A DNA stretch of 64,000 nucleotides, taken from positions 1-64,000 of the forward strand of contig NZ_JAPDPF010000006.1 in NCBI RefSeq assembly GCF_026283925.1, given 5' to 3'. Made by a program: the position numbers and the translations under genes. The notes under the pieces were generated by a model, which had not been told where the DNA came from, ran no database searches, and saw only the letters and a program-made list of their open reading frames with translations. Below, piece by piece: positions 38-28,590 of this stretch (the first letter of the stretch is position 1; every line of letters begins with the position of its first letter). The stretch comes from Dyella halodurans. GTDB taxonomy: Bacteria > Pseudomonadota > Gammaproteobacteria > Xanthomonadales > Rhodanobacteraceae.

Positions 38-123
38 GGGTGGACTCCTCTTCGCCGTTGACTGGTGTATCGCAGCTCCAGTCTGGCACTCGATGCCGAA
101 GGCGGGGAGGAGTCCATCTCATT
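38..123 (-). mobile_element. Structured upstream end of the IS110 element (possible guide-RNA region)
   Basis: The non-coding stretch between the transposase start and the interrupted repeat folds strongly. The arm GGACTCCTC at about 42-50 pairs with GAGGAGTCC at about 107-115. Inside are a hairpin with arms ACTGG and CCAGT and another with arms GGCA and TGCC. IS110-family elements are known to encode a structured bridge RNA in a non-coding end, and this is the right place for one. It is short, about 85 bases, against the usual 150-250 bases, so this role is only inferred. Confidence 0.4.
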
Positions 124-145
124 GCTTTGGGTCGCAAGCGGACCT
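124..145 (+). repeat. Dispersed hairpin repeat, copy 1, cut by IS110
   Basis: The loop and right arm (GGGTCGCAAGCGGACC) are intact, but the left-arm bases expected before GCTTTGGG are replaced by the end of the IS110 element. It lies 12 bases downstream of the next minus-strand stop codon. Confidence 0.8.
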
Positions 146-156
146 ATCAATGCATT

Positions 157-426
157 CTAAGCAGTGTCGTCATTAGTCGGCGGCAACTCGCTCTCTTTCG
201 AAGGGCGAACATGAGGTCGCGCCCGCTCTTCCTTGGCCCCGAACATGCGGTAGTTAGAGCGTGCCTGATTCAGGCTCGGGTGGTTCGCTCCACCAGCGAA
301 GTCAGGATTGTCGAACTGCACGTCGTCATCCTCCCAGAAGCAAACAGGGCAGATCACGAACGAGCCGGGAAACGACCCATCGTCCGGCATCGTGAGATGG
401 TCACAGCACGGGCAGGCAAGGCTCAT
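157..426 (-). CDS. CPCC-type cysteine-rich small protein
   Basis: An 89-residue protein starting MSLACPCCDHLTMP. The pair of cysteine motifs CPCC (residues 5-8) and ICPVCFWEDD, followed by NPDFAGGANHPSLNQAR, is typical of the cysteine-rich CPCC domain family, small probable zinc-binding proteins of unknown role. The start ATG at 426 is preceded by GGGGGAAT. Residues after about 65 are charged and low in complexity. It is the first of a row of small minus-strand genes that are each followed by a hairpin repeat. The family assignment is good, but the function is unknown. Confidence 0.82.
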   Translation of the reverse strand: MSLACPCCDHLTMPDDGSFPGSFVICPVCFWEDDDVQFDNPDFAGGANHPSLNQARSNYRMFGAKEERARPHVRPSKESELPPTNDDTA

Positions 427-441
427 ATTCCCCCTTTGTAA

Positions 442-471
442 AAGGTCTGCTCTGGGTCGGAAGCAGACCTT
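442..471 (+). repeat. Dispersed hairpin repeat, copy 2
   Basis: A perfect 10-bp stem, AAGGTCTGCT (442-451) with AGCAGACCTT (462-471), around a loop containing GGGTCGG. It lies 15 bases from the downstream minus-strand stop. Both arms carry the T/A version of the variable pair, so the stem is kept by a compensating change. Confidence 0.9.
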
Positions 472-486
472 CCTGTGAGTAAGAAA

Positions 487-858
487 TTACTCGAAATCTG
501 GCCTGATGGCGCCCCATCCGCCATTCTGGAACCCGTAGTAGTAAATCGCCTCTGGTCCCGAGTAGTGCTCGTCGGCAAGAAGAACGGCGATTCGTCCGCC
601 CCCGAAAAACTCGATGGAGACCTCATCGGCGTTTATGTCGACGGCTTGCACCCGCCCCGATATGTGGCTGCATAGCAGGTTGCGAAACTGATTATCTCCG
701 GTCCTAGCGGATTGCTCTTGCGATGACACCGCGACCGTATTCATCACATTGAGGGCCGGACCATCGAACTGGAGCTGCAAGTAGTCCCATACGAATGTCA
801 CGGCAGTGAGCTGGCGCCCGGCCAGCTCTTTTAGCTGCTCGTGATCTTGAATGCTCAT
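487..858 (-). CDS. Hypothetical protein, 123 aa
   Basis: An open frame starts at the ATG at 858 (MSIQDHEQLKELAGRQ) behind AAGAAGGCAG. A longer upstream extension would run through the hairpin repeat at 921-949, so the internal start is preferred. The product has no signal peptide or membrane segment. It looks like a small soluble mixed alpha/beta protein with a Gly-rich FFGGGRIAVLL strand and a Trp/Tyr-rich end. I do not recognise a family. It sits between two copies of the repeat. Confidence 0.6.
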   Translation of the reverse strand: MSIQDHEQLKELAGRQLTAVTFVWDYLQLQFDGPALNVMNTVAVSSQEQSARTGDNQFRNLLCSHISGRVQAVDINADEVSIEFFGGGRIAVLLADEHYSGPEAIYYYGFQNGGWGAIRPDFE

Positions 859-920
859 CTGCCTTCTTGACCTCAATGCAGGAGGAGAGATAAACCGTGA
901 AGAACCTTCAGACCACTGAG

Positions 921-949
921 TGTCTGTTATGGGTCGGAAGCGGACGCTA
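921..949 (+). repeat. Dispersed hairpin repeat, copy 3
   Basis: Arms GTCTGTT and AGCGGAC around ATGGGTCGGA. Two T-G pairs replace the standard pairs. It ends 18 bases from the minus-strand stop at 968. Confidence 0.85.
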
Positions 950-967
950 GCACTCATGCTTTGGAAT

Positions 968-1543
968 TCATGGGCTGACGTCCTGCCAAATCCCTGCTCG
1001 TTCGAACAACCCGACATACACATCGACGAGCTTGGCCAAGCCACGCGCATCCGCCCTTGATTCCGGTTCCCAGCGCGATATGCCCTTGCATTCACCGTTT
1101 GATACGACCTCAACGATCAATATGTCGCCGTCCGCACCCCTTACGTTGTCCGTTACCGGAAGGTTCCAGTAGCCGGCATCGCCAATTGCCTTCTTGATGT
1201 CATCAATTTCCGCGACGGATGGGCTGTCGGTTTTTTCAAATGCTACCGGCCCTACGCGCTGTCCAAATTGCCCAGACAAAACGATCGCTCGGCGTGTTGT
1301 TTTCGCTCCGTTCCTCTCGTAACGGAGTGCGATTGGATGCCGAAATGTAGGCAGATAGGTCAACCTGACGGCAAAGTACCCCGGCGCCTTGCCAGTCGCC
1401 GTCAGGGTTGGCTCATTGAAACCGTGAAGACCAAAAGCTTCGTATGGGTTGGAACAACTCTCGGTTTTAGAAACTTGACCGGCGAGTGCGACGTTGGTCC
1501 AAACGAAGAAAATCACGGCAAGGTTTGACAAAATCGGCTTCAC
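968..1543 (-). CDS. Hypothetical secreted protein, 191 aa
   Basis: Begins at a GTG at 1543 with AAGGA about ten bases upstream. The N-terminus VKPILSNLAVIFFVWTNVA followed by LAG is a good Sec signal peptide. An ATG further upstream would force translation through the repeat at 1582-1611, giving repeat-encoded residues, and is rejected. The mature part contains several Cys and Trp residues and ends GIWQDVSP. The family is not recognised. It is probably periplasmic, judged from the signal peptide only. Confidence 0.6.
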   Translation of the reverse strand: MKPILSNLAVIFFVWTNVALAGQVSKTESCSNPYEAFGLHGFNEPTLTATGKAPGYFAVRLTYLPTFRHPIALRYERNGAKTTRRAIVLSGQFGQRVGPVAFEKTDSPSVAEIDDIKKAIGDAGYWNLPVTDNVRGADGDILIVEVVSNGECKGISRWEPESRADARGLAKLVDVYVGLFERAGIWQDVSP

Positions 1544-1581
1544 GAATTCGATTCCTTGTTTGCGACTATGCCGCCAGAGAA

Positions 1582-1611
1582 ATGTCCGCTCTGGGTCGGC
1601 AGCGGACCTTA
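1582..1611 (+). repeat. Dispersed hairpin repeat, copy 4; supplies a stop codon
   Basis: Arms GTCCGCT and AGCGGAC around CTGGGTCGGC. The TTA at 1609-1611, directly after the right arm, is read on the minus strand as the TAA stop of the next gene. Confidence 0.9.
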
Positions 1612-1863
1612 GCCTACCAGCGTCAGGTCGTTCGGAAACTGGGATGCCGAGTCCCAATCGCTGTCGTCTAAAGCTTTCGCACTGCGCCGCCACGCCCTGT
1701 TGAGATGCGCATATACGTGGCCGAGATCAATACGAAGGGCGTCTTCGTCAAAGTCCGGAACCTGCACGAGATCTCTAAGGAGATTCCCGAGATGCTCCCT
1801 GGCGTCCTCAAGTTCAGACAAGAAGGCGGCCCACTCAACTGGCTGAAGGGTTCGATCGATCAC
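1609..1863 (-). CDS. Small hypothetical protein, 84 aa
   Basis: Encodes MIDRTLQPVEWAAFLSELED and continues as a mostly helical, acidic protein ending PNDLTLVG. It has no signal peptide or membrane segment. The TAA stop is contributed by the adjoining hairpin repeat. The pattern of Leu and charged residues (LGNLLRDLVQVPDFDEDAL) suggests a small helical bundle. I do not recognise the family. Confidence comes from the open frame and its regular spacing within the array. Confidence 0.55.
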   Translation of the reverse strand: MIDRTLQPVEWAAFLSELEDAREHLGNLLRDLVQVPDFDEDALRIDLGHVYAHLNRAWRRSAKALDDSDWDSASQFPNDLTLVG

Positions 1864-1900
1864 TTGTCACCCAATTTGTCTCGTAATTGCCGATGTGAAA

Positions 1901-1929
1901 GCGTCCGCTCCGCGTCGGGAGCGGACATC
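1901..1929 (+). repeat. Dispersed hairpin repeat, copy 5
   Basis: Arms GCGTCCGCTC and GAGCGGAC-like around CGCGTCGG. It ends 10 bases from the stop at 1939. Confidence 0.85.
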
Positions 1930-1938
1930 GTTACATGT

Positions 1939-2271
1939 TCACTTCGTGAATTGCTTTGACGTCACTTCGCCTGTATTTGGGTCGATCGTGCAGGCGAAAC
2001 ATGCATAGTTGAATGCGACCAACGGATGTTCCGAAGTGATGCCGGTGTATGCGTCCACCTCGCCCATCCCGATGTCTTCCGCACGCCAAAGCGCCTCGCC
2101 AGTTAGGCCATAGGCGAAGAGGTTCCTCGCGGGCGCTCCATTAGGAAAGGCCATCCAATCGCATAGAACCACGACCAAGTCACCCACCTGGCGCGCGTCG
2201 AGGACGGGGTATCCGACCTCAATCGATCCCCCAGGTGCATTCACCTGGCTCCCCTGAAATTCAATCTTCAA
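1939..2271 (-). CDS. Hypothetical protein, 110 aa, TTG start
   Basis: The likely start is the TTG at 2271, which has a strong GGAGGGG just upstream. Any earlier start would read through the repeat at 2308-2336. The product (MKIEFQGSQVNAPGGSIEVG) is rich in beta strands and carries segments such as NLFAYGLTGEALWRAED and ACFACTIDPNTGEV. These resemble single blades of WD/PQQ-like cytosolic proteins found across proteobacteria. There is no signal peptide, and I assign no function. Confidence 0.6.
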   Translation of the reverse strand: MKIEFQGSQVNAPGGSIEVGYPVLDARQVGDLVVVLCDWMAFPNGAPARNLFAYGLTGEALWRAEDIGMGEVDAYTGITSEHPLVAFNYACFACTIDPNTGEVTSKQFTK

Positions 2272-2307
2272 AGTCCCCTCCGGCTCCGGATTCCCGCGTC
2301 GTCCCTG

Positions 2308-2336
2308 ATGTCTGCTATGGGTCGGGAGCGGACTCC
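2308..2336 (+). repeat. Dispersed hairpin repeat, copy 6
   Basis: Arms GTCTGCT and AGCGGAC (one T-G pair) around ATGGGTCGGG. It ends 18 bases from the stop at 2355. Confidence 0.88.
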
Positions 2337-2354
2337 CGTTTCTATCCAAGCCCC

Positions 2355-2609
2355 TTAGCTGGCGTGACTCAACACGATGCGAAGTGCCAGGTAAGGAACA
2401 AGGTTGAACAGGAGGATGCCGATTTTGTAAATGGCCATGCCTGCGTAGTGGATGCTGTCGAAACGCTCCTCGGGCAGGCGGAACCAGCGACCGTGAAGGT
2501 TCAACATCCAGCGATGTGCAAGGACGAAAGCAGCGAACCACACGATCAAGATGACGTAGTTGATGATGGTGCACCAGAGCAGAACATCTTTCACAAGTTC
2601 AATATTCAT
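2355..2609 (-). CDS. Small membrane protein, DUF6868-like
   Basis: An 84-residue protein beginning MNIELVKDVLLWCTIINYVI with two membrane segments (about residues 13-32 and 57-80). Between them is a soluble HGRWFRLPEERFDSIHYA stretch. This matches the compact layout of DUF6868 inner-membrane proteins (WCTIIN..., HG.WF...., YK...FNLVPY). The start ATG at 2609 follows AGGAGTGGACA. A GGGCGTTAGCC core lies 16 bases before the start (see 2626-2861). The biological role is unknown. Confidence 0.78.
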   Translation of the reverse strand: MNIELVKDVLLWCTIINYVILIVWFAAFVLAHRWMLNLHGRWFRLPEERFDSIHYAGMAIYKIGILLFNLVPYLALRIVLSHAS

Positions 2610-2625
2610 TGTCCACTCCTTTGCC

Positions 2626-2861
2626 GGCTAACGCCCTAATGAGCGGACGCGCATATTCGTCATGTATCTGCATGCACTTGCTGGATGCAGCCTCCAAGGC
2701 ACTGACTCCATAACCTTTACCCGACGCACATGTCACTGGCAATCCAAAGCAATGGTGGACTTGGAATGCATCCCTTTGAATACCCGCATGGGGTCGCTGG
2801 CTTACGTCCGCTGCGAGTCGGGGGAAGACACTTCGATGAGCCACGCATCATGCTGCTCTCG
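2626..2861. other. Gap without a convincing gene; holds an attC-like core and a decayed hairpin repeat
   Basis: At 2626-2636 the + strand reads GGCTAACGCCC (GGGCGTTAGCC on the minus strand), like the end of an integron attC site. At 2803-2832 lies a degraded hairpin repeat (GTCCGCTGCGAGTCGGGG then AAGAC), 29 bases from the stop at 2862. An open minus-strand frame crosses the gap but has no good start and overlaps the next gene. It may be a decayed gene. Confidence 0.45.
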
Positions 2862-3365
2862 CTACCCCATCGAGCGAAGAGATGTCTTCGAGGCCACGAG
2901 TGCGGTGGCGTCCGCCACGCTTCCGAAGGTAATGCCCGAATCAGGCAGCCACCTGATCCCACCCGGCCGTTTCAGGAGAATTCCATCAGGGAATCGGACG
3001 GCTCGCGGGTATGCGGACCAAGGCATTACCGTATGGTGCTCGATGCCACCCACGCCGACCCCGACTTCACTCAATAGCGTCACTGCTTCGGTCCCGAATC
3101 CTTGTCGTCTCCTGAATTTCATCATGATGCCAAATTTCGTCGCCCAGACGCCGGATGCAGCAAACACACCGCAGATCAATACGATCAGCAAGACTATCCT
3201 TGGGTCCGACATGCCCCAAAGGCCAAGGAAAAAGATCGCGCACCCGACGCCGATAAGGCCAAATTGAATGGGTAGTCGTAACAGCCACGGTCCCTGTCGA
3301 TACTGGCGATCGATGACTACCTTGAAGTAGGCCGTGTCACAAAGGTACTGATACTTGACGTCCAT
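2862..3365 (-). CDS. Membrane protein with YcxB-like C-terminal region
   Basis: A 167-residue protein starting at the ATG at 3365 (MDVKYQYLCDTAYFKVVIDR), with AGGATGAG upstream. Two hydrophobic helices (about residues 36-55 and 59-80) are followed by a soluble C-terminal domain with TLLSEVGVGVGGIEHHTVMP, VRFPDGILLKRPGG and IRWLPDSGI. This resembles YcxB-like proteins, in which a two-helix anchor carries a small beta-rich domain. The likeness is by pattern and the role is unknown. Confidence 0.65.
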   Translation of the reverse strand: MDVKYQYLCDTAYFKVVIDRQYRQGPWLLRLPIQFGLIGVGCAIFFLGLWGMSDPRIVLLIVLICGVFAASGVWATKFGIMMKFRRRQGFGTEAVTLLSEVGVGVGGIEHHTVMPWSAYPRAVRFPDGILLKRPGGIRWLPDSGITFGSVADATALVASKTSLRSMG

Positions 3366-3429
3366 GAAGCGCTCATCCTTTCGCTGACGAAAGTCCAACT
3401 TGGCTGAACACCAGTGGCCGCTGTCGGGA

Positions 3430-3460
3430 ATGTCCGTTTCGGGTTGCCGACTCAGCCGGG
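3430..3460 (+). repeat. Hairpin repeat, long type, truncated (copy 8)
   Basis: Reads TGTCCGTTTCGGGTTGCCGA and continues with a CAGCCGG motif. This is the left arm plus the start of the nested element seen complete at 25822-25900. The right half is missing. It ends 20 bases before the stop at 3480. Confidence 0.7.
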
Positions 3461-3479
3461 AGTAAACAGCCCCCTCGGA

Positions 3480-3830
3480 TCACATCAACCTGATTCCCCA
3501 TGGGCGCACAGCCCAGGCGAACAGGGCGAAACAGACGACGGTGATGATTGCGCTCAGGCCGAGGGCCGGCCAGAACCCGAAGCGCGAGAAGAGCCAGGGG
3601 AACGCCAGGAACATCGGCAGGGTCGGCACCACGTACCAGAACGTATACCAGGCGTGGTTGGCGATCTTCGCCGCTGGCTGCTTTTCCATGTGCAGCCAGG
3701 TCAACGCCAGCAAGGTCACCAGAGGTAACGATGCCAGCAGGGCACCGGCCCTGTCGCTGCGCTTGGCGACTTCCGAAACTGCCACGACGATGGCGGCGGT
3801 AATGAAGTACTTGGTGATGATCCAGAGCAT
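3480..3830 (-). CDS. DUF3147 family membrane protein
   Basis: A 116-residue protein with four hydrophobic stretches and the family landmarks SEVAKRSDRAGALLASLPLV and NHAWYTFWYVVPTLPMFL. Length and layout are as usual for DUF3147 inner-membrane proteins, whose function is unknown. Codon use is GC-rich, like the core genes to its right. It may be part of the older chromosome rather than of the accessory array. Confidence 0.88.
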   Translation of the reverse strand: MLWIITKYFITAAIVVAVSEVAKRSDRAGALLASLPLVTLLALTWLHMEKQPAAKIANHAWYTFWYVVPTLPMFLAFPWLFSRFGFWPALGLSAIITVVCFALFAWAVRPWGIRLM

Positions 3831-3889
3831 GGGCGGTCTCTACTGCGCAGCAAGATCGACAGGTTGAAAAGTGACGGCCCACGGAAGGA

Positions 3890-4342
3890 TCAGTCGCGCG
3901 CCTTGACGCTTGAAGGAAGGACGACGAAGTCCTGTGTTCTTTCCAGGGACTCCATGGCCGCGATGAGTGCCGCTGGTGGGGCTACGAGCTTGCGCTCGTT
4001 GAGGTCCAGCCAGCCGCCTGCGCTGGTCACCCGCGCGCTGAGCTTGCCGTCCTGCCGGAAAATCTCGTGCCGAAGCAGGAAGCGGCTGCCGTCGTCGGAA
4101 TGGCCGGCAAGCGCATAGGTCACCGTGATCTGCTGTTGCAGGCCGATCTCCTTGAAGTATTCCAACTCGTCCTTCATGACCACCGGGCCGATCCGCAGGC
4201 GCATGAACTCTTCCATGGGGAACCCATGCTCCATCAGGAACATCTGCCGCACATCGACCGTCTTGTCGAGGTAAGCCGTATTCCGCATATGGGCGTTGAA
4301 GTCCATGTCGCCCCAACCTGCATAGAGAGTCTTCGTGTACAT
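3890..4342 (-). CDS. Acyl-CoA thioesterase, 4HBT (hotdog fold) family
   Basis: A 150-residue protein starting at the ATG at 4342 (MYTKTLYAGWGDMDFNAHMR), with GGAG upstream. The segment WGDMDFNAHMRNTAYLD matches the active-site helix region of YbgC/FadM-type hotdog thioesterases. The Asp after Met is the usual catalytic position. Later strands (YALAGHSDDGSRFLLRHEIF) also fit. It would hydrolyse acyl-CoA esters in the cytoplasm. The open frame extends a further 154 codons upstream, but that part is low in structure and is rejected. Substrate unknown. Confidence 0.85.
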   Translation of the reverse strand: MYTKTLYAGWGDMDFNAHMRNTAYLDKTVDVRQMFLMEHGFPMEEFMRLRIGPVVMKDELEYFKEIGLQQQITVTYALAGHSDDGSRFLLRHEIFRQDGKLSARVTSAGGWLDLNERKLVAPPAALIAAMESLERTQDFVVLPSSVKARD

Positions 4343-4807
4343 GCACGTGCTCCAGCGGATATGAGTAGCCAGCCTTGGACCATCCCCTCCGCGCCAGCCG
4401 GCCATGGCGCCCACCAACCGCCGGGAGTCTAGGACATTCCGCGGTTGCGAGCTTGCCGTGTTCGCCCGCGACCACTGCCCCATGCACGCCCCAATGACCG
4501 TTTCCCGTTCGAGGCCGCGCAAGCTTGATGCCGCCCTCCACTGACCTGCCGCGGCGGCAACAGACGACCCGGTCCTGACACGCCCATTCTTGATGAGGCC
4601 CGCGCTGGGTCGGCGGGTTTTTCCGGGATTTACGTCCGCGGCGCCCGCCAAACCATGCTGCAACAACAGGCACCCGAGAGCGCTGTACGGACCAGCTTCC
4701 GGATCATCGAGCACCAGCCGGCGCAGGTCTGCGACGCCCTCCCAGACCCGGGCCAATACCCCTCGGACGGTCTCCCCAGGTGTTTTTCGCCCATGGTGCG
4801 CCACCGC
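4343..4807. other. Intergenic region between divergent genes
   Basis: About 465 bases between the thioesterase start and the operator in front of glk. Open frames on both strands are shadows of GC-rich sequence. I see no RNA gene or repeat. Confidence 0.4.
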
Positions 4808-4823
4808 TTGACACCGGTGTCAA
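4808..4823 (+). promoter_or_regulatory. Perfect 16-bp palindrome, LacI-type operator candidate
   Basis: TTGACACCGGTGTCAA, a perfect palindrome with the central CG typical of LacI-family operators, lies 48 bases before the glk start. Its first six bases are also a consensus -35 box, and a weak -10 (TACACG) follows after 16 bases. A repressor here would block RNA polymerase directly. The LacI-family gene at 15943-16950 is the obvious candidate regulator (inference). Confidence 0.6.
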
Positions 4824-4870
4824 TTACGTTACACGCTGATAACAGTTCCAATGCAAGGGGCGCACTGGGC

Positions 4871-5929: not shown

Positions 5930-8259
5930 GCCCTATCGCGACCTCACGATTCTTCCGGTGCGTGGCCATCGTGTGGCTGGCCGCGACGGGCGCGGTCGTT
6001 GCAGCGCCAGCCATCCCCGCGTGGTCGTTGCTGCCGCAGCCGGCAAAGCTCAGCCCCGCCGGATCGGGCGCGGCCACGATCGCCGATGGTGCTGTGGTCT
6101 CGGTGCGCGGCGCGGATCGCGCACAAGTGCAGTCCATGGCGGAGCGCTTCGTGCAGCGCGTGGCCGACACCAATGGATTGCATTTGCGGCTGGCGGCTAC
6201 GGGCGCCGCGCATCCTGCGATCGCCTTCGACGTCGAGCCAAACGCCGATGTCACCGACGACGCCGGCTATCGCATCACAGTGGATGACGGCGGCATCCTG
6301 GTCACGGCGCGTACGCCGCGCGGTGCGTTTTATGGCAGCGTCACGCTGGCGCAGTTGCTGACGCCAGCGGGATGGACGCGTGGCGCGCCGGTCGCGGTGG
6401 CGCATGGCGTCATCGACGATCACCCGCGTTTCGCATGGCGCGCCTTGCTGCTCGACTCCGGGCGACACTACCAGAGCGTGGCCGAGATCAAGCAGCTGAT
6501 CGACTGGATGTCGCTGCACAAGCTCAACGTGTTGCTGTGGCACCTGACCGAAGACCAGGGCTGGCGCCTCGACATCCCCAAGTATCCCGAGCTCACCAAA
6601 ATCGGCGCCTGTCGCAAGGCGGTGGGCTTCGATCGCGAACTGACCGGCTCTGCCGAGCAACCCTATTGCGGCTTTTATACGGAGGCCGACGCGCGCGACA
6701 TCGTGCGTTACGCCGCCGAGCGTTATGTGGAGGTGGTACCGGAAATCGATCTTCCCGGGCATATGCAGGCCGCCGTCGCCACCTATCCGTGGCTGGGCGT
6801 GACCGGCCAGCGTCCGCCGGTATGGACCGAGTGGGGCGTCAGCCCGTGGCTGCTCAAGCCCAATGAAAAGACTCTGCAGTTTGTCGACGACGTGCTCGAT
6901 GAAGTGATGCGGCTGTTTCCTTCGCGCTACATCTCCATTGGTGGCGACGAGGCGGACAAGCAGCAGTGGAATGCGTCGCCCGAGGTGCAGGCGCAGATGC
7001 GCAAGCTGGGCCTGGCGAACATGGATCAGCTGCAAGGCTGGTTCACCCAGCAAGTTGCCGCCCACCTGATCAAGGCCGGGCGTACGCCGGTGGGCTGGGA
7101 TGACGAGCTGGTCGCGGGCGCAACGCTGCCGGCAGCGGAAGTGGTGATGTCCTGGCACGGCGACGACAACGAGCGCGTGGCGCTTACTGCGATCAAGCAA
7201 GGCCACGACGTGGTCATGACGCCGCAGGAATCGCTGTACTTCGACCACGTGCAGTCCGACCGACCCGACGAATGGCCGGGGCCGCCGCCGGCGGCGACGC
7301 TGCGGCAAGCGTACGACACGGTCGTCATCCCGAACGGCGCGAGTGCGGCTGAAGCCAAACGCATCATCGGCGTGCAGGCGGGGCTCTGGGCCGAGCAGAT
7401 GCCAACCTTTGCACACGACCAGCACGCGGTATTCCCGCGCGTCGCGGCGCTGGCGGAGCTTGGCTGGTCGCCTGCGCAGGCGCACGACTGGGATGGCTTT
7501 CTGCAACGCATGCCGGCGGAACTGGCCCGTTACCGCGCGCTCGGCATCGGCTATGCCGACAGTGCGTTTGCACCCGCCTTTCAGGTGACGGCGAGCGAGG
7601 GTGGGTTCCGGGTCGAGTTGGCCAATCAGGTCGGATTCGGCACCCTGCGTTACACCACGGATGGCTCCGCACCGACCAGCCGATCCACGCCGTACTCCCG
7701 GCCGCTCACGCTGGCGCGCGATGCGACCCTGCGCGCGGCGACGTTTGCGGCGGACGGCTTCGAGCTGGCCGCGCCACGCGCGCTGGTGCTGGACGAAACC
7801 ACCTTGCTGAGCCGCGACAGCAGCGCGCTGGCGACCTGCTCGCAGCAGCCGGGCTCGCGCCTGGAAGGCAGCAAGCCGGCGACGGGACCGCGGCCGCTCT
7901 ATTCCGTCGACATCGGCAACGCCTGTTGGCTCTGGCCGCAAGCGTCCTTGGACGGCACCAGGCATGTGGCCATGACGGTCGAACGCATGCCATGGCGTTT
8001 CGGTGACGAGGCCAAGGACGCCGTGGTACGCCACCCGGCCGATGCGGCCGGTGAGTTCGAGATCCATGCGGATTCCTGTACAGGGCCGCTGCTTGCCCGT
8101 TTGCCGCTGGGGAGTGCGGCGCGGGCCAACGGGCAAGTTCGTCTTGATGCACAAGTGGCCATGCCGGCGGGGGCCGGCGCGCGCGACCTGTGTGTGTTTG
8201 CTACCGGCGATCCACGCCAGGGGCAGTGGGCGTTGGCGCGGATCGCGTTTTCGAAATAA
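5926..8259 (+). CDS. Beta-N-acetylhexosaminidase, GH20 (exported)
   Basis: A 777-residue protein with a signal peptide (MSPIATSRFFRCVAIVWLAA, then cleavage near VVA-AP). It has a GH20b-like N-terminal domain and a GH20 catalytic barrel from about residue 165 (HPRFAWRALLLDSGRHYQSV). The catalytic Asp-Glu pair is D341-E342 in SIGGDEADKQQW. It should remove terminal GlcNAc from chitooligosaccharides in the periplasm. The C-terminal 230 residues include a chitobiase-type FN3-like segment with LRYTTDGSAPTSRSTPYS. It starts inside the glk stop codon and is the second gene of the chitosan/chitin locus. Confidence 0.93.
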   Translation: MSPIATSRFFRCVAIVWLAATGAVVAAPAIPAWSLLPQPAKLSPAGSGAATIADGAVVSVRGADRAQVQSMAERFVQRVADTNGLHLRLAATGAAHPAIAFDVEPNADVTDDAGYRITVDDGGILVTARTPRGAFYGSVTLAQLLTPAGWTRGAPVAVAHGVIDDHPRFAWRALLLDSGRHYQSVAEIKQLIDWMSLHKLNVLLWHLTEDQGWRLDIPKYPELTKIGACRKAVGFDRELTGSAEQPYCGFYTEADARDIVRYAAERYVEVVPEIDLPGHMQAAVATYPWLGVTGQRPPVWTEWGVSPWLLKPNEKTLQFVDDVLDEVMRLFPSRYISIGGDEADKQQWNASPEVQAQMRKLGLANMDQLQGWFTQQVAAHLIKAGRTPVGWDDELVAGATLPAAEVVMSWHGDDNERVALTAIKQGHDVVMTPQESLYFDHVQSDRPDEWPGPPPAATLRQAYDTVVIPNGASAAEAKRIIGVQAGLWAEQMPTFAHDQHAVFPRVAALAELGWSPAQAHDWDGFLQRMPAELARYRALGIGYADSAFAPAFQVTASEGGFRVELANQVGFGTLRYTTDGSAPTSRSTPYSRPLTLARDATLRAATFAADGFELAAPRALVLDETTLLSRDSSALATCSQQPGSRLEGSKPATGPRPLYSVDIGNACWLWPQASLDGTRHVAMTVERMPWRFGDEAKDAVVRHPADAAGEFEIHADSCTGPLLARLPLGSAARANGQVRLDAQVAMPAGAGARDLCVFATGDPRQGQWALARIAFSK

Positions 8260-18589: not shown

Positions 18590-18624
18590 GCCGTCGCTCC
18601 AAGGAACCCGTTGAGGTAGGAATT

Positions 18625-18647
18625 CGCCACGGGTCGGAAGCAGATAC
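18625..18647 (+). repeat. Dispersed hairpin repeat, weak left arm
   Basis: CGCCACGGGTCGGAAGCAGA keeps the loop and right arm; the left arm is decayed. It ends 18 bases from the stop at 18666. Confidence 0.7.
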
Positions 18648-19131: not shown

Positions 19132-19160
19132 AGGGCTGCTGAGAGTCGGAAGCGGACCTT
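19132..19160 (+). repeat. Dispersed hairpin repeat
   Basis: AGGGCTGCTGAGAGTCGGAA then GCGGACC. The right arm is intact and the left changed. It is 91 bases from the next minus-strand stop, more than usual. Confidence 0.7.
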
Positions 19161-20617: not shown

Positions 20618-20648
20618 CGTCGGCTTCGAGTCGAAAGCAGACCTTACA
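20618..20648 (+). repeat. Dispersed hairpin repeat; supplies a stop codon
   Basis: GTCGGCTTCGAGTCGAAAGC then AGACC. The TTA at 20644-20646 is the TAA stop of the minus-strand gene to the right. Confidence 0.8.
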
Positions 20649-21050: not shown

Positions 21051-21080
21051 ATGTCTGCGTTGGATCGGAAGCGGACCTTA
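21051..21080 (+). repeat. Dispersed hairpin repeat
   Basis: Arms GTCTGC and GCGGAC with a TTGGATCGGA loop. It ends 10 bases from the stop at 21091. Confidence 0.85.
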
Positions 21081-21501: not shown

Positions 21502-21531
21502 AGGTCCGTTTCGGGTCGAAAGCAGACCTTA
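21502..21531 (+). repeat. Dispersed hairpin repeat
   Basis: GGTCCGTTTC pairs with GAAAGCAGACC around GGGTC, a longer stem than usual with one mismatch and one T-G pair. It ends 10 bases from the stop at 21542. Confidence 0.88.
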
Positions 21532-21541
21532 CATTCCGTAG

Positions 21542-21844
21542 CTAGAGCTCGATAAAGCCGCACTCCTCCGCGTCGTAGAAGCGAGCCTCAAGTCGACTGC
21601 AGATCTGCCTCAATACAACACGTTCCTCGTCTCCCCAGACCCCACTGAACGTAATTGCGCGTGGATCGGGGCTCTCGGCCACGCTTTCCACGTTGGCTGT
21701 GAGTCGAAGGCCTACCGCAACCTCCATAACCTCCGTCACAAGGTCCTCCACGACTTGCCGCGGCCCGAGTGGAGGCGGCACCCAGTCATTACCCAACGTC
21801 TCGGCGTCCCGATCCGCTCGCACGACAATACCGATGCTACCCAT
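21542..21844 (-). CDS. Hypothetical protein, 100 aa
   Basis: Encodes MGSIGIVVRADRDAETLGND and a soluble alpha/beta protein with QVVEDLVTEVMEVAVGLRLT and a C-terminal RLEARFYDAEECGFIEL. The family is not recognised. The start ATG at 21844 follows AGGGGAAAGCAA, a good ribosome binding site. Confidence 0.58.
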   Translation of the reverse strand: MGSIGIVVRADRDAETLGNDWVPPPLGPRQVVEDLVTEVMEVAVGLRLTANVESVAESPDPRAITFSGVWGDEERVVLRQICSRLEARFYDAEECGFIEL

Positions 21845-21880: not shown

Positions 21881-21909
21881 ATGTCCGTGATGGGTCTGAA
21901 GCGGACGCT
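21881..21909 (+). repeat. Dispersed hairpin repeat
   Basis: GTCCGTGATGGGTCTGAAGC then GGAC. It ends 24 bases from the stop at 21934. Confidence 0.85.
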
Positions 21910-21933
21910 CCTGACGGTTGCCATTCCGCTCGC

Positions 21934-22155
21934 TTAGCGCTTCGCGCCTTCAGTATTGCCAAGCGTAATGAAGGTGAAAATCGCGATGACGGCTGCCGAT
22001 CCGAGCGTCACTCTGGAAGCCAAGAGGGCAACCAGGAAACTATAGTGAACTCCCAGCACCAAGCATTTGACCAGAACAGTGACCATCGCGATCGTTGTGA
22101 CGACCGCATAGAAGATGAAGCCGCCTAGCAAAGCCTTCAGGACTCTTTTCACCAA
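21934..22155 (-). CDS. Small membrane protein, 73 aa
   Basis: Starts MVKRVLKALLGGFIFYAVVT and has two strong hydrophobic segments (about residues 10-35 and 40-65) with basic ends (MVKR, GAKR). AGAGGGGATTGGTGAAAAGA-like sequence before the ATG offers a ribosome binding site. There is no recognisable family; two-helix proteins of this size are often holins, regulators or immunity proteins, but nothing here decides. Confidence 0.58.
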   Translation of the reverse strand: MVKRVLKALLGGFIFYAVVTTIAMVTVLVKCLVLGVHYSFLVALLASRVTLGSAAVIAIFTFITLGNTEGAKR

Positions 22156-22180
22156 TCCCCTCTCCGTCAGTGATCAGAAA

Positions 22181-22271
22181 TACGTCCGCTTCGGGTTGCG
22201 GATTCAGCCGGTCGTTGCAACGGTTTGATGAAATCGCTCGGCCGGCGTTTCGTAGTCGGAGGCGGACCTAC
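22181..22271 (+). repeat. Hairpin repeat with a nested, diverged element
   Basis: The outer arms GTCCGCTTCGGGT and GTCGGAGGCGGACC are split by about 60 bases beginning TGCGGATTCAGCCGGTCG. This is the element seen intact at 25822-25900, with its right arm decayed. It ends 13 bases from the stop at 22285. Confidence 0.85.
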
Positions 22272-22692: not shown

Positions 22693-22734
22693 TTGTTCCC
22701 CCTTTTACTTGATTCTAACCGTCATCTCGCCAAG

Positions 22735-22763
22735 GCCCGCTACGGGTCGGCAGCAGACCTTAG
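22735..22763 (+). repeat. Dispersed hairpin repeat
   Basis: GCCCGCTACGGGTCGGCAGC then AGACC. It ends 5 bases before the stop at 22769. Confidence 0.88.
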
Positions 22764-22768
22764 CGGCT

Positions 22769-24322: not shown

Positions 24323-24365
24323 GCGTTTCGGTCCTTTAGACGGGTTTGTGGTCCAGATGAACTGA

Positions 24366-24425
24366 TTGCGCGGTCGTTAGTGTGTTGCGTCGACCGGTTG
24401 AGGCCGCCGCGAAAATCGGACCACC
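24366..24425 (+). repeat. Right half of the nested element, decayed repeat remnant
   Basis: GTGTGTTGCGTCGACCGGTT then GAGGCCGC matches the right arm and centre of the element at 25822-25900. The following ATCGGACC may be the leftover right arm of the outer repeat. The left half is missing. Confidence 0.7.
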
Positions 24426-24481
24426 CTTTCGTCGAAATGCCCGCCTTGGGGCGGGCGGCTGGATGGTCAATTCTTCGCTGG

Positions 24482-25117
24482 CTAATCATCCTGGCCGACC
24501 AGCAGTTTGAAATTGACCAAGACGTAGAACGCGCCCCAATAGATGAAGACACTGGCGAATACGACAAACCACGAGATCAAAGGCATGGTCGAACTATTTG
24601 CAATCAGGCGTGACAGTGACAGTACAGAATGTGAGCTGTCGTCCGTGATCATGTCGCCGTTGAAGAAGGTTGGGAAATGGATTACGGAAAAGTCTCCCAA
24701 TATGAAGGCGAACGCGACAATCAAAAATACCGCCAATCTCAGAAAGGCATGCGGCACCGGCCTCAGCGAGGCACTTCTGCGAATCGCCACCCTGATCGTG
24801 GGGGCAACTGGCCAGTAGCCAATAAATAGCAGCGCGGCGTAAAGCAAAAACAAGAGCCACTGAATCGTCATGACGAAACTGCATTTCTCTGGATAGGGGG
24901 AAATTCCGACAGATTTCCAGATGGCCGGCACATGATTTACCCCATATGCACCGATCTCGCTAGCCAAGGTTGAGCCAGCGACCACGTCAAAAAATATTGA
25001 CGATAGGTAACTTATGGCAAGCGTCACGATCGCCGTTATCGCTATGGGTCCCAGGTTCATCTTGCCTTTAAGAGCAAGCTTTCGCCTTTTGGCATACGGC
25101 CCGATCATCAGACTCAT
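24482..25117 (-). CDS. Hypothetical four-helix membrane protein (paralogue of 27035-27691)
   Basis: A 211-residue protein starting at the ATG at 25117 after GGGAGGACTG. A basic LALKGKMNL motif precedes four hydrophobic segments, including FVMTIQWLLFLLYAALLFIG and a C-terminal SVFIYWGAFYVLVNFKLLVG. The paralogue at 27035-27691 shares LALKG, SVQWL/TIQWL, GYWP/GYCP, HFPTF/KFPTL and the C-terminal YW....VNF pattern. No family or function is recognised. Confidence 0.68.
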   Translation of the reverse strand: MSLMIGPYAKRRKLALKGKMNLGPIAITAIVTLAISYLSSIFFDVVAGSTLASEIGAYGVNHVPAIWKSVGISPYPEKCSFVMTIQWLLFLLYAALLFIGYWPVAPTIRVAIRRSASLRPVPHAFLRLAVFLIVAFAFILGDFSVIHFPTFFNGDMITDDSSHSVLSLSRLIANSSTMPLISWFVVFASVFIYWGAFYVLVNFKLLVGQDD

Positions 25118-25174
25118 CAGTCCTCCCGTTTAGCTTTTGATGACGCATTCGCGCGAAATCAGTTTCTGATCGGA

Positions 25175-25202
25175 ATGTCTGCTGTGGGTCGGTAGCGGAC
25201 CT
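25175..25202 (+). repeat. Dispersed hairpin repeat touching a stop codon
   Basis: Arms GTCTGCT and AGCGGAC around GTGGGTCGGT. The last base is part of the TGA stop of the gene to the right. Confidence 0.88.
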
Positions 25203-25786
25203 CACGACTCCAAAGTGCGCCTACTGGCCAGTTGCCAGAACATGATGCCGGCAATACCGCCGGCAAAGCCAAGCGGGCCCCAAAAAATCTCGAACCCTCG
25301 CGAGAGATCTAGGGGCACCTTGTCGGGTGAATCGGTATAAAAGCTGATCGAACTGCCCAGTTTGACCCATGCCACCACGGCAAGAAGACCAACTACGATC
25401 CCGGCGCACGGATAGAAGGTAGGAGCCTTAACCTGCATTCTCTTAGCAGTCCACGCCAGCACCAAACAAGGAGCTGCCGAGAGCATCACCGCCACGAGCC
25501 AGGCGACCGTGAGCACTGCGACCAGCTCCACCCCGAATGCAAGAACTGAATGCTGCTTCGCAATGAGCTCCGCAAACATGCGCGTGCCGAAAAAGGCGTA
25601 CCAGATCGCGAAGCAAAGGGCCGCCACCGAAACACTCTGAAAATAGCATTCCGCCATTTGACCGTAGGAAAGTGTTGCTATAGAACTGCGCCCTTCGATT
25701 AAAGTTCGCTCGCTCCCCATAATTCCTCCCAAGATGATCACAGTAAATCCATAGCTGGCGAGAGATCCAATCTCGGCCAATTTCAC
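25202..25786 (-). CDS. Hypothetical four-helix membrane protein, 194 aa
   Basis: Starts MKLAEIGSLASYGFTVIILG. Hydrophobic segments lie near residues 10-25, 52-70, 83-110 and 128-145, with a further weak one at the C-terminus (WGPLGFAGGIAGIMFWQLAS). It is not similar to the paralogue pair on either side. No family is recognised. The start ATG at 25786 has GGATGTG upstream. It lies in the array of repeat-separated genes. Confidence 0.6.
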   Translation of the reverse strand: MKLAEIGSLASYGFTVIILGGIMGSERTLIEGRSSIATLSYGQMAECYFQSVSVAALCFAIWYAFFGTRMFAELIAKQHSVLAFGVELVAVLTVAWLVAVMLSAAPCLVLAWTAKRMQVKAPTFYPCAGIVVGLLAVVAWVKLGSSISFYTDSPDKVPLDLSRGFEIFWGPLGFAGGIAGIMFWQLASRRTLES

Positions 25787-25805
25787 ATCCTTGATCTGAC
25801 TTTCC

Positions 25806-25917
25806 CATGTCCGCTTCGGGTTGCGGTTTCAGCCGGTCGATGCAACACACTGAAGACTGCGCGATTAGCAGGAGTGTTGCATCGACCGGCTGAAACCGCA
25901 GTCGGAAGCGCACCTTA
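25806..25917 (+). repeat. Hairpin repeat with complete nested palindrome; supplies a stop codon
   Basis: The outer repeat halves (ATGTCCGCTTCGGGT and GTCGGAAGCGCACC) flank a 79-bp insert at 25822-25900. Its 27-bp ends are perfect inverted copies (TGCGGTTTCAGCC at the left end, GGCTGAAACCGCA at the right). A GT dinucleotide stands on both sides. The TTA at 25915-25917 is the TAA stop of the next gene. Confidence 0.9.
25822..25900 (+). mobile_element. 79-bp MITE-like element with perfect 27-bp terminal inverted repeats
   Basis: Left arm 25822-25848, right arm 25874-25900, centre 25 bases. It has no coding capacity. Partial copies at 22196-, 24366-, 28520- and shorter starts at 3442 and 60943 enter the hairpin repeat at the same point, so it is either a site-specific insertion or a long form of the repeat. 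Confidence 0.7.
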
Positions 25918-26367
25918 TCTGTCGAACCGAAGCAACCGCTCGGTTACGGGCGATTTTCCCCACGCATTTCTGAAGTCACCCCGTGGGACAAAGGAAATTT
26001 TCCGCCCAAAGGAACACGGTCGCTCGAGAAAAATGGTCATTCGGTAGGCTCGGCCACTGATGAGCCGGACGCGACCAATGTCATCCAAAGTAATTGTTGT
26101 GGTCTTCCTGCCTCGAGACACGACGAGAGAATCTCCACAGTCGCGCACAACGTCCATCAACCATGCGAATGGCAACAAGGCCACTATGGTTGCGAAGGCG
26201 CCAATCATCGCAACATGAAAACACATCCCCGGCGAAAAACCGCTTCCCCAAATTGTTCGCCAGGCAGCAACAAGCGTAAGCAGTGAGAAGGCGACAGCCA
26301 TAAACGCGGCGATCGCCCATTTGGAGCCGAATACCCCGGCAGACAGGATTGCTCCTTCAGAATTCAT
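25915..26367 (-). CDS. Hypothetical membrane protein with PH-like domain, 150 aa
   Basis: Starts at the ATG at 26367 (MNSEGAILSAGVFGSKWAIA), AAGGGGG upstream. Two membrane helices (about 16-37 and 47-70) precede a soluble beta-rich part: DSLVVSRGRKTTTITLDDIG, VRLISGRAYRMTIFLERP and ISFVPRGD. The design resembles small two-helix anchors carrying a PH-like fold. Its TAA stop is part of the composite repeat. No family name can be given. Confidence 0.62.
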   Translation of the reverse strand: MNSEGAILSAGVFGSKWAIAAFMAVAFSLLTLVAAWRTIWGSGFSPGMCFHVAMIGAFATIVALLPFAWLMDVVRDCGDSLVVSRGRKTTTITLDDIGRVRLISGRAYRMTIFLERPCSFGRKISFVPRGDFRNAWGKSPVTERLLRFDR

Positions 26368-26417
26368 CACGCCCCCTTTTTCGATTCTCTACCGCATTGA
26401 CTGCTCACCCAGCTCAA

Positions 26418-26444
26418 CTGTCCGCTTCGGGTCGGCAGCGGGCG
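26418..26444 (+). repeat. Dispersed hairpin repeat
   Basis: GTCCGCTTCGGGTCGGCAGC then GGGCGC. Its right arm is slightly altered. It lies 30 bases before the stop at 26474. Confidence 0.85.
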
Positions 26445-26473
26445 CCCTCCCTCCATAACCCAAGCGCCAGCGA

Positions 26474-26923
26474 TCAGCCAAGTCTCCAGCCAAAGTCCGA
26501 ATACGGTACACCTTCAAACGCACACCGAATGCCTTGTGCAGTGTACGGAATGATGTCGTAGGGAAGCTCGGCCCAATCATGCCAACCAAGGTAGTCGTGC
26601 TTTCCGTTCTCAACCAATTCGGGCGTCCCCGCCCAACGCTCCGCAAAGAAGAATGCGCCCAGCCATTCGGCACCGGAATCGCCAGCGCGACAATGCATGA
26701 GGTGAGCCAACCGAAGTGTTTCCGGGCTAGCCACCAATCCCGTCTCTTCCCTGAGCTCCCGCGCGGCGGCCACCGTCAAAGGCTCCCCACCATCGTGGGA
26801 TCCGGCGGGAAGACTTAAGAAGCCATCCATCCAGCCGGTGTTGCTGCGCCGTAACAACAGTACGTTGCTTTTCTTGCGAACGATGACGAAAACGCTCGTC
26901 GTCAACTGAAACCGCTGCCTCAA
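26474..26923 (-). CDS. NUDIX hydrolase
   Basis: Hydrolyses a nucleoside diphosphate linked to another group. The full Nudix box G-x5-E-x7-REL-x-EE-x-GL is present as GSHDGGEPLTVAAARELREE then TGLV, and NTGWMDGFLSLPAG precedes it. I take the TTG at 26923 as start (GGAGAGCGCA upstream, product LRQRFQLTTSVFVIVRK), since earlier starts at 26971 and 26980 lie inside the hairpin repeat and lack a ribosome binding site. Length, about 149 residues, is normal. Substrate unknown. Confidence 0.85.
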   Translation of the reverse strand: MRQRFQLTTSVFVIVRKKSNVLLLRRSNTGWMDGFLSLPAGSHDGGEPLTVAAARELREETGLVASPETLRLAHLMHCRAGDSGAEWLGAFFFAERWAGTPELVENGKHDYLGWHDWAELPYDIIPYTAQGIRCAFEGVPYSDFGWRLG

Positions 26924-26961
26924 TGCGCTCTCCAAAGCCAAGTCGTCCAGTGCGTCACTAA

Positions 26962-26989
26962 GGTCCGGCATGGGTTGCAAGCGGACCCT
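26962..26989 (+). repeat. Dispersed hairpin repeat
   Basis: GGTCCGGCATGGGTTGCAAG then CGGACC. It lies 45 bases before the stop at 27035. Confidence 0.8.
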
Positions 26990-27034
26990 GAGCGGCGGCC
27001 TAGAGCGCCGCCAAATCTGTTCTCCTGACCCTCC

Positions 27035-27691
27035 TCACCCCACCGCGACAGGTCGAGGGGCGGTCGTAAAAATCATTCGGAAGTTAACAACGTAGTGGAG
27101 GATGGCCCAGTACACACAGATAGTCGCAAATGGCGCGAACCATGCGAACAAAGGCATGGCGATTGAGCTGTTCATGATGCCGACGAAGGTTCGCGAGGAA
27201 GCCTTCCCTTCATCGAGCGGAAAGAATCCCCCATTCATCAGCGTTGGGAACTTCATTACGCCGATCTCTCCAAGCAAATAGAGACACAGGGTGATCCCGC
27301 CGACGAAGAGCTTAAGCTCCCGGTGGCTGACGTATGTGCGCTTGTACCAGCCATGGATGGCAATCCTGGTGGGCGTTGAAAAAGGGCAGTAACCCACGAA
27401 AAGCACCCACGCGTAGATTGGCACGAAAAGCCATTGGACTGACATGATAAACCGAGCTGTCGCGCCGAACCTCGAGTACTCCGGTGCGTTGCGAACTACT
27501 GGGATTAAGCTAGCAGCCGCATCGACAAAGCCATTGATTGCCGGGCCACTAGAGAAGCGAGGATATGCGAGAAGACTAAGATAGCTAAGAACCAGAAAAA
27601 CACCTGCCGACCAGAGAAGCGGTCTGAGGTAGAAGCGGCCCTTCAAGGCGAGTCGTTTCTTCTGCATAAACGGTGCTGGAAATTCGCTCAC
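27035..27691 (-). CDS. Hypothetical four-helix membrane protein (paralogue of 24482-25117)
   Basis: A 218-residue protein. The GTG at 27691 has GAGGAGGGAGA directly before it, and an ATG at 27667 (MQKKRLALKGRFYLRPLL) is an alternative start. It has four hydrophobic segments, including FIMSVQWLFVPIYAWVLFVG, and the shared landmarks listed for its paralogue 2 kb away. No recognised family. Two related genes in one array suggest duplication or repeated capture of one gene type. Confidence 0.68.
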   Translation of the reverse strand: MSEFPAPFMQKKRLALKGRFYLRPLLWSAGVFLVLSYLSLLAYPRFSSGPAINGFVDAAASLIPVVRNAPEYSRFGATARFIMSVQWLFVPIYAWVLFVGYCPFSTPTRIAIHGWYKRTYVSHRELKLFVGGITLCLYLLGEIGVMKFPTLMNGGFFPLDEGKASSRTFVGIMNSSIAMPLFAWFAPFATICVYWAILHYVVNFRMIFTTAPRPVAVG

Positions 27692-27737
27692 TCTCCCTCC
27701 TCGCGTCGTCACTGACCCTTGCCAGGGCTTCTTCACG

Positions 27738-27764
27738 GATCCGCTCCGCGTCTGAGGCGGACCT
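27738..27764 (+). repeat. Dispersed hairpin repeat
   Basis: GATCCGCTCCGCGTCTGAGG then CGGACC, with a changed loop. It lies 36 bases before the stop at 27801. Confidence 0.8.
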
Positions 27765-27800
27765 AAATCGGAGCTGGACCCGAGCACACTGCGCCTGGCG

Positions 27801-28484
27801 TCAGTCTGCCCCGTCATGCACAAGCTGATATGTCGGAGACAACGGCCAAATCCGTTGGTCCGGTTCAACAAGGCGAACTCTGGCGTAGCCGTTCTCCGCC
27901 ACTGGCAGAGATGGCGCAATGGCTTTCTCCACGTCGGCTGCGACACTTAGCCATTGCCTATTCCACTGAGAGAAGTCTCGCAGGAACGGCTCTGGCAGCG
28001 ACTCGATCTGCTTATTCGACCAGAGCAGGAGCGATCGACCTGATTCAGCGCCGTAAAAGAAATGAACTACGCCGCCAATAACGGCTCCTTGCGCCGTGTC
28101 GATCCAGACGAACCCCTTTTCATCGCACGAATGCAATCGACAGGAAGACAGCATGACGTACCGACCGTCCGTCTCCACCAGAGACTGATCGGGCCCACCC
28201 ATCACCTCCCATACCGAACTTCGTAGTGGCGGAGGTGGAGCTTTTGACTTACTCATCCCGAGATAGATGCTTATCTTCGGCACGCTTCTGGCAAGCAAAT
28301 GATCAAATCGCTTGTCGAAGAGAATCCCACTGGCGCTTGCCCCCTTGGATGGCAACAACCAAGTCAACGATTCTGACTCCGACGACACTGGAGCCTCGGC
28401 TTTCGCGGAAACCTGGCTCGCGAACAAGCCTCCAGCTATGGCGAGGAGAAACACCATGCTGGCCCACCGATAATTCGATCCCAT
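27801..28484 (-). CDS. Hypothetical secreted protein, 227 aa
   Basis: Starts at the ATG at 28484 after GGGAAAGGT with a clear signal peptide (MGSNYRWASMVFLLAIAGGL, then FASQVSA). The mature protein has GRYVMLSSCRLHSCDEKGFV, with two Cys that could pair, then WIDTAQGAVIGGVVHFFYG. This pattern is seen in small periplasmic proteins that contact DUF-type cell-wall modules, but I do not recognise the family. It is the last gene of the array before the adhesin operon. Confidence 0.6.
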   Translation of the reverse strand: MGSNYRWASMVFLLAIAGGLFASQVSAKAEAPVSSESESLTWLLPSKGASASGILFDKRFDHLLARSVPKISIYLGMSKSKAPPPPLRSSVWEVMGGPDQSLVETDGRYVMLSSCRLHSCDEKGFVWIDTAQGAVIGGVVHFFYGAESGRSLLLWSNKQIESLPEPFLRDFSQWNRQWLSVAADVEKAIAPSLPVAENGYARVRLVEPDQRIWPLSPTYQLVHDGAD

Positions 28485-28507
28485 ACCTTTCCCAAGTGAC
28501 TTTGAAC

Positions 28508-28590
28508 TGTCCGTTTCGGGTTGCGGATTCAGCCGGTCCCTGCAACAGACTGAACACTGCGCGAGCATTAGCGCATTCAGAGGATCCACT
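28508..28590 (+). repeat. Hairpin repeat, long type, right half lost
   Basis: GTCCGTTTCGGGTTGCGGAT then TCAGCCGG continues into the centre of the nested element (ACTGAACACTGCGCGA), after which the similarity fades. It ends about 26 bases before the stop at 28617. Confidence 0.8.

Follow-up and report, generated by a model that had tools for sequence, protein, structure and literature searches.

Direct repeats of Dyella halodurans as probable recombination sites of an integron-like gene-cassette system

Introduction

A stretch of Dyella halodurans DNA (contig NZ_JAPDPF010000006.1, positions 1 to 64,000), called here the window and corresponding to G000:C22:1-64000 in our numbering of a 4.69-Mb genome (G000), contains short palindromic repeats behind its genes. 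These repeats are very probably recombination sites of a gene-cassette system, served most likely by a 207-aa tyrosine recombinase encoded elsewhere in the same genome. In our reading, the system would be bidirectional and integron-like, yet not an integron. The proposal is based on sequence comparison: units bordered by sites, a central crossover, the lack of arm covariation, the position of the recombinase gene, half-sites beside part of its relatives, and a relocated module. The first-pass annotation, made from the letters of the window, had suggested either an unrecognised cassette-type system or a self-spreading 3' element. The former idea is supported by the site-bordered units, the common orientation of 470 of 473 neighbouring pairs, the lack of IntI over cut-off in the genus and the candidate recombinase in the genome; the latter is not, because the repeats move with genes and are cut centrally.

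Repeats in the window and in other genomes

In gene sense, the consensus of the repeat is AAG GTCYGCTTY CGACCC RNAGCRGAC MTT, with inverted arms flanking an asymmetric 6-bp centre that is 95-98% conserved, and the information content falls to background beyond ~30 bp. A weight-matrix scan of the window found 20 copies above 13 bits, including two weak ones below 15 bits (2806 and 27739), compared to ~0.3 per strand expected in Markov-shuffled sequence with the first version of the matrix. The count of about 28 in the first-pass annotation was fair, because insertion elements interrupt four more copies (halves at 3432, 22184, 25809, and 28509) and additional weak copies lie at 21692, 45981, and 60129. 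All 20 read the same way, and 18 of them follow a minus-strand ORF (60 aa or longer) whose stop is 1-48 bp away, as had been noticed from the letters; random places are equally near such a stop in 13% of cases (16% within arrays), and 3/20 sites are equally near a plus-strand stop on the opposite side. The two remaining sites, 19134 and 62073, are 94 bp and 202 bp from the stop, respectively. The whole-genome search recommended at that time gave 56 matches at up to two mismatches in G000 and none for the reversed-pattern control.

When 61 genomes were searched with one mismatch allowed, matches were found in 28, including 20/20 of the window's genus, with 1-115 copies each; two genomes of the genus (G003 and G018) have a single copy, and G021, of another genus, has 26. 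Arrays were observed in nine genus genomes and G021, these being the genomes whose match positions were listed. The window and 61 further loci together contain 581 sites. Sites less than 2.5 kb apart are concordant in orientation in 470 pairs and discordant in 3; the first-pass annotation had named copies equally frequent in both orientations as an argument against its proposal, and such a mixture was not found among neighbours. The longer ORF lies on the sense strand in 312/351 inter-site intervals. Sense ORFs of at least 50 aa (n = 309) stop no more than 40 bp before the next site in 71% of cases (median 19 bp), and the median distance from a site to the ORF start is 38 bp. At L010:4734-4794, two sites 60 bp apart are oppositely oriented, a rare flip without a recombinase.

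Recurring units and the point of exchange

Comparison of the arrays by blastn revealed gene units, 80-99.6% identical, that recur at different places in one genome or in different species, with unrelated neighbours at each place. After exclusion of blocks touching no site or reaching the end of a locus, 56 homology blocks remained, and 79 of their 112 ends fall at sites in both sequences, compared to 1.8% of randomly shifted ends; sites are present at both ends of 25 blocks (the counts are pairwise comparisons and partly non-independent). Units of gene plus site thus recur with borders at the repeats, the kind of border that the first-pass annotation had proposed to test for between strains. 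For example, L005:4308-4883 and L013:4296-4871, on two contigs of G000, are 99.3% identical within unrelated flanks. The window unit 24413-25200 is 89.9% identical to a unit in L013, elsewhere in G000, and the unit 21891-22196 is 94.5% identical to one in L019 (genome G014); the stop-side border of the latter is at site 21883, and its other end abuts an IS30-type end.

The sites bordering units at least 95% identical differ in a regular manner. At the 5' site (18 comparisons), 24, 2, and 6 differences were counted at positions 1-9, 10-15, and 16-24, respectively, and at the 3' site (17 comparisons) 9, 4, and 34. The 5' site therefore varies chiefly in its left arm and the 3' site in its right arm, while some differences fall on the wrong side, as expected from later mutation. 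This split by side places the exchange within or adjoining the 6-bp centre, between positions 9 and 16, and each site is thus two half-sites joined.

The first-pass annotation had described the repeats as hairpins with covarying arms. Among sites scoring above 20 bits, no arm covariation was found, Watson-Crick pairs occurring at roughly the rate expected if the arms assort independently (389 sites, with four pairs re-tested in 546). In the larger set, the biggest departure from independence, at positions 8/17, is a small excess of pairs (263 vs 245.5 expected), and positions 4 and 21 give the C/T by G/A table [[333,95],[61,10]] (p = 0.16). The covariation was thus not confirmed, and the two matched examples on which it was based need be no more than chance. 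The hairpin idea was wrong in detail: the palindrome behaves like a two-arm core site. The lack of covariation argues against a folded single-strand substrate, and it is consistent with sites being joins of two half-sites.

Small tyrosine recombinase and its relatives

A search with PF00589 found a gene for a 207-aa tyrosine recombinase within arrays of G000 (C1:123406-124026; 77 bits) and G002 (C1:2150470-2151090). No recombinase had been detected by a motif scan covering the window and the first 40 array loci, which also missed the true gene. The first-pass statement that no integrase is present holds for the window, but a candidate recombinase lies elsewhere in the genome. In both genomes, the gene is located where the orientation of the sites flips, so that genes, by the sense of the sites, read outward on both sides. 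In Dyella sp. OK004, whose recombinase is the closest named one (87%) among the matches listed and whose arrays are similar, 14 palindromic sites lie on one side of the gene and one on the other, 29 bp past the stop. Upstream homology of these three loci stops at the first site.

The protein has the R-K-HxxR-H-Y set of tyrosine recombinases (R58, K86, H155, R158, H181, Y190), at least 98% conserved in 75 sequences, namely the query and 74 relatives (6/80 recombinases with in-frame stops were omitted). By model score it is no IntI (22.1 bits with TIGR02249, cut-off 265). Its best NCBIfam match is XerA-type, below cut-off; weak matches are the tyrosine-type DNA invertases PRK09870 and PRK09871, which we take to be FimB/FimE-like. 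XerH is the best sequence match in the PDB and, with XerA and Cre, among the best fold matches of a weak structural model, which would be consistent with the tyrosine-recombinase family.

Relatives are widespread in Proteobacteria: a scan of genome contigs found at least 558, and the best 80 belong by their titles nearly all to Gamma-, Beta-, and Alphaproteobacteria. Among 75 of these best 80 loci (five with too little flank were omitted), 23 have a strict outward half-site upstream and 29 have one downstream, compared to 2 and 4 for wrong-orientation controls; 13 are flanked on both sides and 39 on at least one. Counting full sites within 400 bp under looser criteria gave 32 upstream and 29 downstream outward vs 5 and 10 reversed, several of the reversed ones being the same palindromes read backwards. 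A generic count of palindromes around the centre (at least six of seven pairs) showed moderate enrichment (43 vs 13, 13, and 5), and inverted-repeat discovery beside the recombinases returned mostly other palindromes, probably terminators. The inner arm beside recombinases is frequently non-consensus, as would be the case in an attI-like site. Two main centres occur, CGACCC and CGGCCA, and in 6/13 double-flanked loci they differ between the sides.

The recombinase itself also appears as a unit. Four such units, found in Pseudoxanthomonas winnipegensis, Xanthomonas chitinilytica (twice), and a metagenome-assembled genome, are 98.8-99.3% identical over ~755 bp in three hosts and four flanks, and the similarity ends at sites on both sides. 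In Phaeobacter inhibens, a module of phosphoesterase, ABC-transporter, and LysR genes is placed differently in strains P54 and P70: in pP54_a it comes after the recombinase, and in pP70_b it stands ahead of the hydrolase-recombinase block (5.9 kb were compared, the far end lying beyond the pP70_b stretch examined, and a second module copy elsewhere on the plasmids is possible). Module and block each match their counterpart on the other plasmid at 99.2-99.5% identity, and the two matches share 21 bp, which lie in the site; in pP70_b, the last half-site of the module is joined at the shared centre CGGCCC to the half-site that precedes the hydrolase in pP54_a. In the records of many other strains, the match to this region begins at 7829 and is without the recombinase, and none is annotated there in strain M631. 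The family was found on 388/72,556 plasmid records (E≤1e-30) and 3/50,697 phage records (E≤1e-20), and 14/21 of its viral-contig loci were close. Plasmids of Klebsiella, Escherichia, and Pantoea encode relatives ~56-61% identical, mostly annotated as site-specific integrase.

Proposed mechanism and points against it

In the proposed mechanism, each inverted arm would be one recombinase-binding half-site, and a cassette would be a gene with a left half-site behind it. An exchange between two centres would excise or insert the cassette, and therefore each junction would re-form a full site from halves of differing origin; the asymmetric centre would impose a single orientation. The enzyme is most likely the 207-aa recombinase of the same genome, which would catalyse the exchange on double-stranded DNA, the cassettes presumably passing via circles. 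Outward-facing sites on one or both sides of the recombinases suggest that arrays may grow outward both ways. It is likely, although less firmly than the cassette reading itself, that this is a second gene-capture platform independent of the integron, with a minimal tyrosine recombinase, outward sites on both sides and sometimes two centres (CGACCC, CGGCCA) that would keep the two arrays apart. Its cargo would range from one small gene to operons of several kb, and it would be carried by both chromosomes and plasmids in Alpha-, Beta-, and Gammaproteobacteria.

Several observations weigh against this proposal. One is the distribution of the recombinase. Among the 20 site-bearing genomes of the genus, it is intact in two and decayed in one, where it lies beside a decayed site near a contig end (L211; G008:C10, ~870689-870989), and was not detected in 17 within the sensitivity of the searches; 13 genomes were covered by the profile search and the other seven by a search at E≤1e-20, blind to decayed copies (G014, G018, and G019 of them also by the PF00589 search). 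The tracking of a recombinase with the repeats that the first-pass annotation had suggested is thus weakly borne out. In G071, from another family, no recombinase was detected despite 39 strict sites with both centres (contigs C6, C29, C54, C60, C63, and C65). In 369 genomes of the class, the link is modest: strict sites occur in 4/14 recombinase-positive and 21/355 negative genomes (Fisher p = 0.010, or 0.045 excluding the window's own genome), where the best eight or fewer candidates per genome were scored and recombinase genes may be undercounted. It is possible that arrays outlive their recombinase, as integrase-less cassette clusters do, or that trans-acting or other enzymes are involved; arrays without the gene would then have lost it or be served in trans. 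Further, in G000 and G002 the first downstream site to be recognised lies 0.9 kb away from the gene, and 46 of the 75 relatives' loci have no downstream half-site, 52 no upstream one, and 36 neither. Away from scored sites lie 33/112 block ends, at least two of which (22196, 28521) abut insertion-element ends. Comparison of the array loci within the genus yielded no clean empty/occupied pair, and the AlphaFold model of the recombinase is poor (pLDDT 64, pTM 0.48).

Alternative explanations

One can consider that host XerC/XerD move the cassettes, as with dif modules, and that the small recombinase is a passenger. The 17 site-bearing genomes without it favour this explanation, as do strong PF00589 matches, taken for XerC and XerD, in all four recombinase-less genomes examined (G003, G014, G018, G019), and the arms with a 6-bp centre match Xer geometry. 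However, the arms GTCCGCT/AGCGGAC do not resemble the A+T-rich XerC/XerD arms tabulated in PMC13141974, which served as the reference rather than the host's own dif. In addition, the two arms resemble each other rather than being distinct, arrays turn at the small recombinase, and half-sites adjoin part of its relatives. We consider the Xer explanation unlikely.

The sites might be ordinary integron remnants, i.e., attC clusters without integrase, mobilised in trans by IntI. One-way arrays of small genes with no IntI nearby resemble such clusters, and IntI is present in other genera of the same family. While 23/61 genomes overall have IntI over cut-off, none of the 20 genus genomes does; the crossover is central and not at the foot of a stem, the arms part at each exchange, and the consensus has no GTT/AAC core, in line with the first-pass remark that the classical attC core pair is missing. 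With no IntI over cut-off in these genus genomes and a recombinase at 22 vs 265 bits, the integron reading was rejected as very improbable.

No better placed is a shared 3'-end element, a terminator or REP-like sequence, with blocks arising by homologous recombination between repeats. Such an element would fit the palindromic consensus and the sites directly past stop codons, but no U-tract follows the palindrome (just MTT in the consensus), so it lacks the mark of an intrinsic terminator, and the arms do not covary. Neighbours share orientation in 470/473 pairs, units shift between unrelated flanks with swapping of half-sites, and the centre is conserved although a plain hairpin would leave it free. 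The hairpin or RNA reading was rejected on the missing covariation and U-tract and on Rfam, which gave no match in the window at gathering thresholds.

That IS110- and IS30-type insertion elements mobilise the genes can practically be dismissed: both insert at fixed places within sites, but they disrupt the sites they enter, and 25/56 blocks (not individually screened for such elements) are bounded by recognisable sites on both sides.

Insertion elements and other features of the window

The IS30-type element, assigned from the sequence of its 396-aa transposase rather than a family search, is present at L041:520-1749 and L042:7835-9064. The element and its end remnants lie in site centres, apparently with a 2-bp duplication (in the window at 25822-25900, 22197, 28522, and 3445). 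Ends of an IS110-type element, identified by how its transposase begins in L005 (MKLTRIGVDIAK) and likewise not by family search, lie at one fixed spot in the right arm in five cases. The features are listed in Table 1. The Pfam cut-off was passed by 5/19 scanned window ORFs (CPCC, DUF6868, LprI, hydrolase with TPR, and NUDIX). The minus-strand ORF 31169-38215 (2348 codons), with long internal DNA repeats at 32105-35479 that are 73-83% alike, probably encodes a large repeat protein and is unconnected with the sites.

Table 1. Sites, cassette genes and insertion-element ends (window coordinates unless a locus is named)
Feature	Position	Strand	Remark
Site	120..143	-	right arm cut by IS110-type element end (element to left, from 119 down)
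Cassette gene, 89 aa	157..426	-	Cys-rich CPCC family (PF14206)
Site	445..468	-	
Site	922..945	-	
Site	1584..1607	-	
Cassette ORF, 84 aa	1609..1863	-	stop 1 bp from site 1584
Site	1903..1926	-	
Site	2310..2333	-	
Cassette gene, 84 aa	2355..2609	-	DUF6868
Weak site	2806..2829	-	
Half-site	3432..3444	-	followed by IS30-type end remnant
Site	18622..18645	-	
Site	19134..19157	-	
Site	20619..20642	-	
Site	21053..21076	-	
Site	21504..21527	-	
Site	21883..21906	-	
Cassette ORF, 73 aa	21934..22155	-	belongs to unit 21891-22196
Split site	22184..22267	-	IS30-type remnant in centre; halves 22184-22196 and near 22255-22267
Cassette gene, 135 aa	22285..22692	-	LprI family (PF07007)
Site	22735..22758	-	
Cassette gene, 517 aa	22769..24322	-	dienelactone-hydrolase-like with TPR
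Cassette ORF, 211 aa	24482..25117	-	belongs to unit 24413-25200
Site	25177..25200	-	
Split site	25809..25913	-	79-bp palindromic IS30-type remnant in centre (25822-25900)
Site	26420..26443	-	
Cassette gene, 168 aa	26474..26980	-	NUDIX hydrolase
Site	26963..26986	-	
Weak site	27739..27762	-	
Half-site	28509..28521	-	followed by IS30-type end
Isolated site	58267..58290	-	20 bp past stop of ORF 58311-58898
Isolated site	62073..62096	-	
IS110-type ends	1-119; L013:8926, L016:111, L028:5922, L031:11584		

Comparison with known systems

Repetitive extragenic palindromes (REP/BIME) with RAYT have mixed orientation, a GTAG foot and a RAYT gene; site orientation and consensus set the present repeats apart from them. 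The recombinase resembles FimB/FimE-type enzymes in its ~200 aa and a catalytic domain with little before it. DNA invertases flip one segment between inverted repeats, whereas here direct repeats bound many mobile genes. Two arms with an asymmetric spacer, the geometry of loxP, are shared with XerH/difH and Cre/loxP, but those are not known to have cassette arrays, and XerH and Cre are longer proteins with a core-binding domain.

The dif modules (pdif) of Acinetobacter plasmids use host XerC/XerD and alternate in orientation, so that two leave together. Short two-arm sites, crossover in a 6-bp spacer, and shuffling of modules are common to both systems, and so are target-specific insertion sequences at sites (PMC13141974, PMC10132070). 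In contrast to dif modules, the arms are alike here, neighbours point one way (470/473), single cassettes recur, and a dedicated recombinase lies beside the sites.

The integron is similar in its arrays of small genes, most of them unassigned to any known family (here 5/19 window ORFs pass Pfam), that read outward from a tyrosine recombinase, and in its palindromic cassette sites with a less symmetric site beside many recombinases. Integron attC sites have RYYYAAC/GTTRRRY cores with crossover in GTT; here, the consensus is GTCYGCTTY CGACCC RNAGCRGAC and exchange would occur between positions 9 and 16. The 207-aa recombinase, far below the IntI cut-off, the central crossover, the lack of a covarying stem and the arrays on both sides in some loci also differ from an integron. 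A site beside the recombinase together with an outward one-way array, as in integrons, was found at three Dyella-type loci, on both sides in some. Recombinase-less arrays are common in both systems, going by the definitions in PMC9668308.

Integrons are so far the model for the stockpiling and shuffling of single genes. If the proposed system is correct, then cassette capture would have more than one origin, the arrays of small unknown genes that IntI/attC searches would miss could be explained, and a simple testable enzyme would be provided; relatives on plasmids, including enterobacterial ones, suggest possible gene transfer between species. In the open literature searched, neither these sites nor this recombinase was found described as part of a cassette system, and the site sequence strings gave no match; preprints and most subscription papers were outside this search, so a prior description is possible. 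In its working the system resembles an integron, and in its mode of exchange a dif module, but it lacks tested defining features of both; its chemistry is probably ordinary tyrosine recombination.

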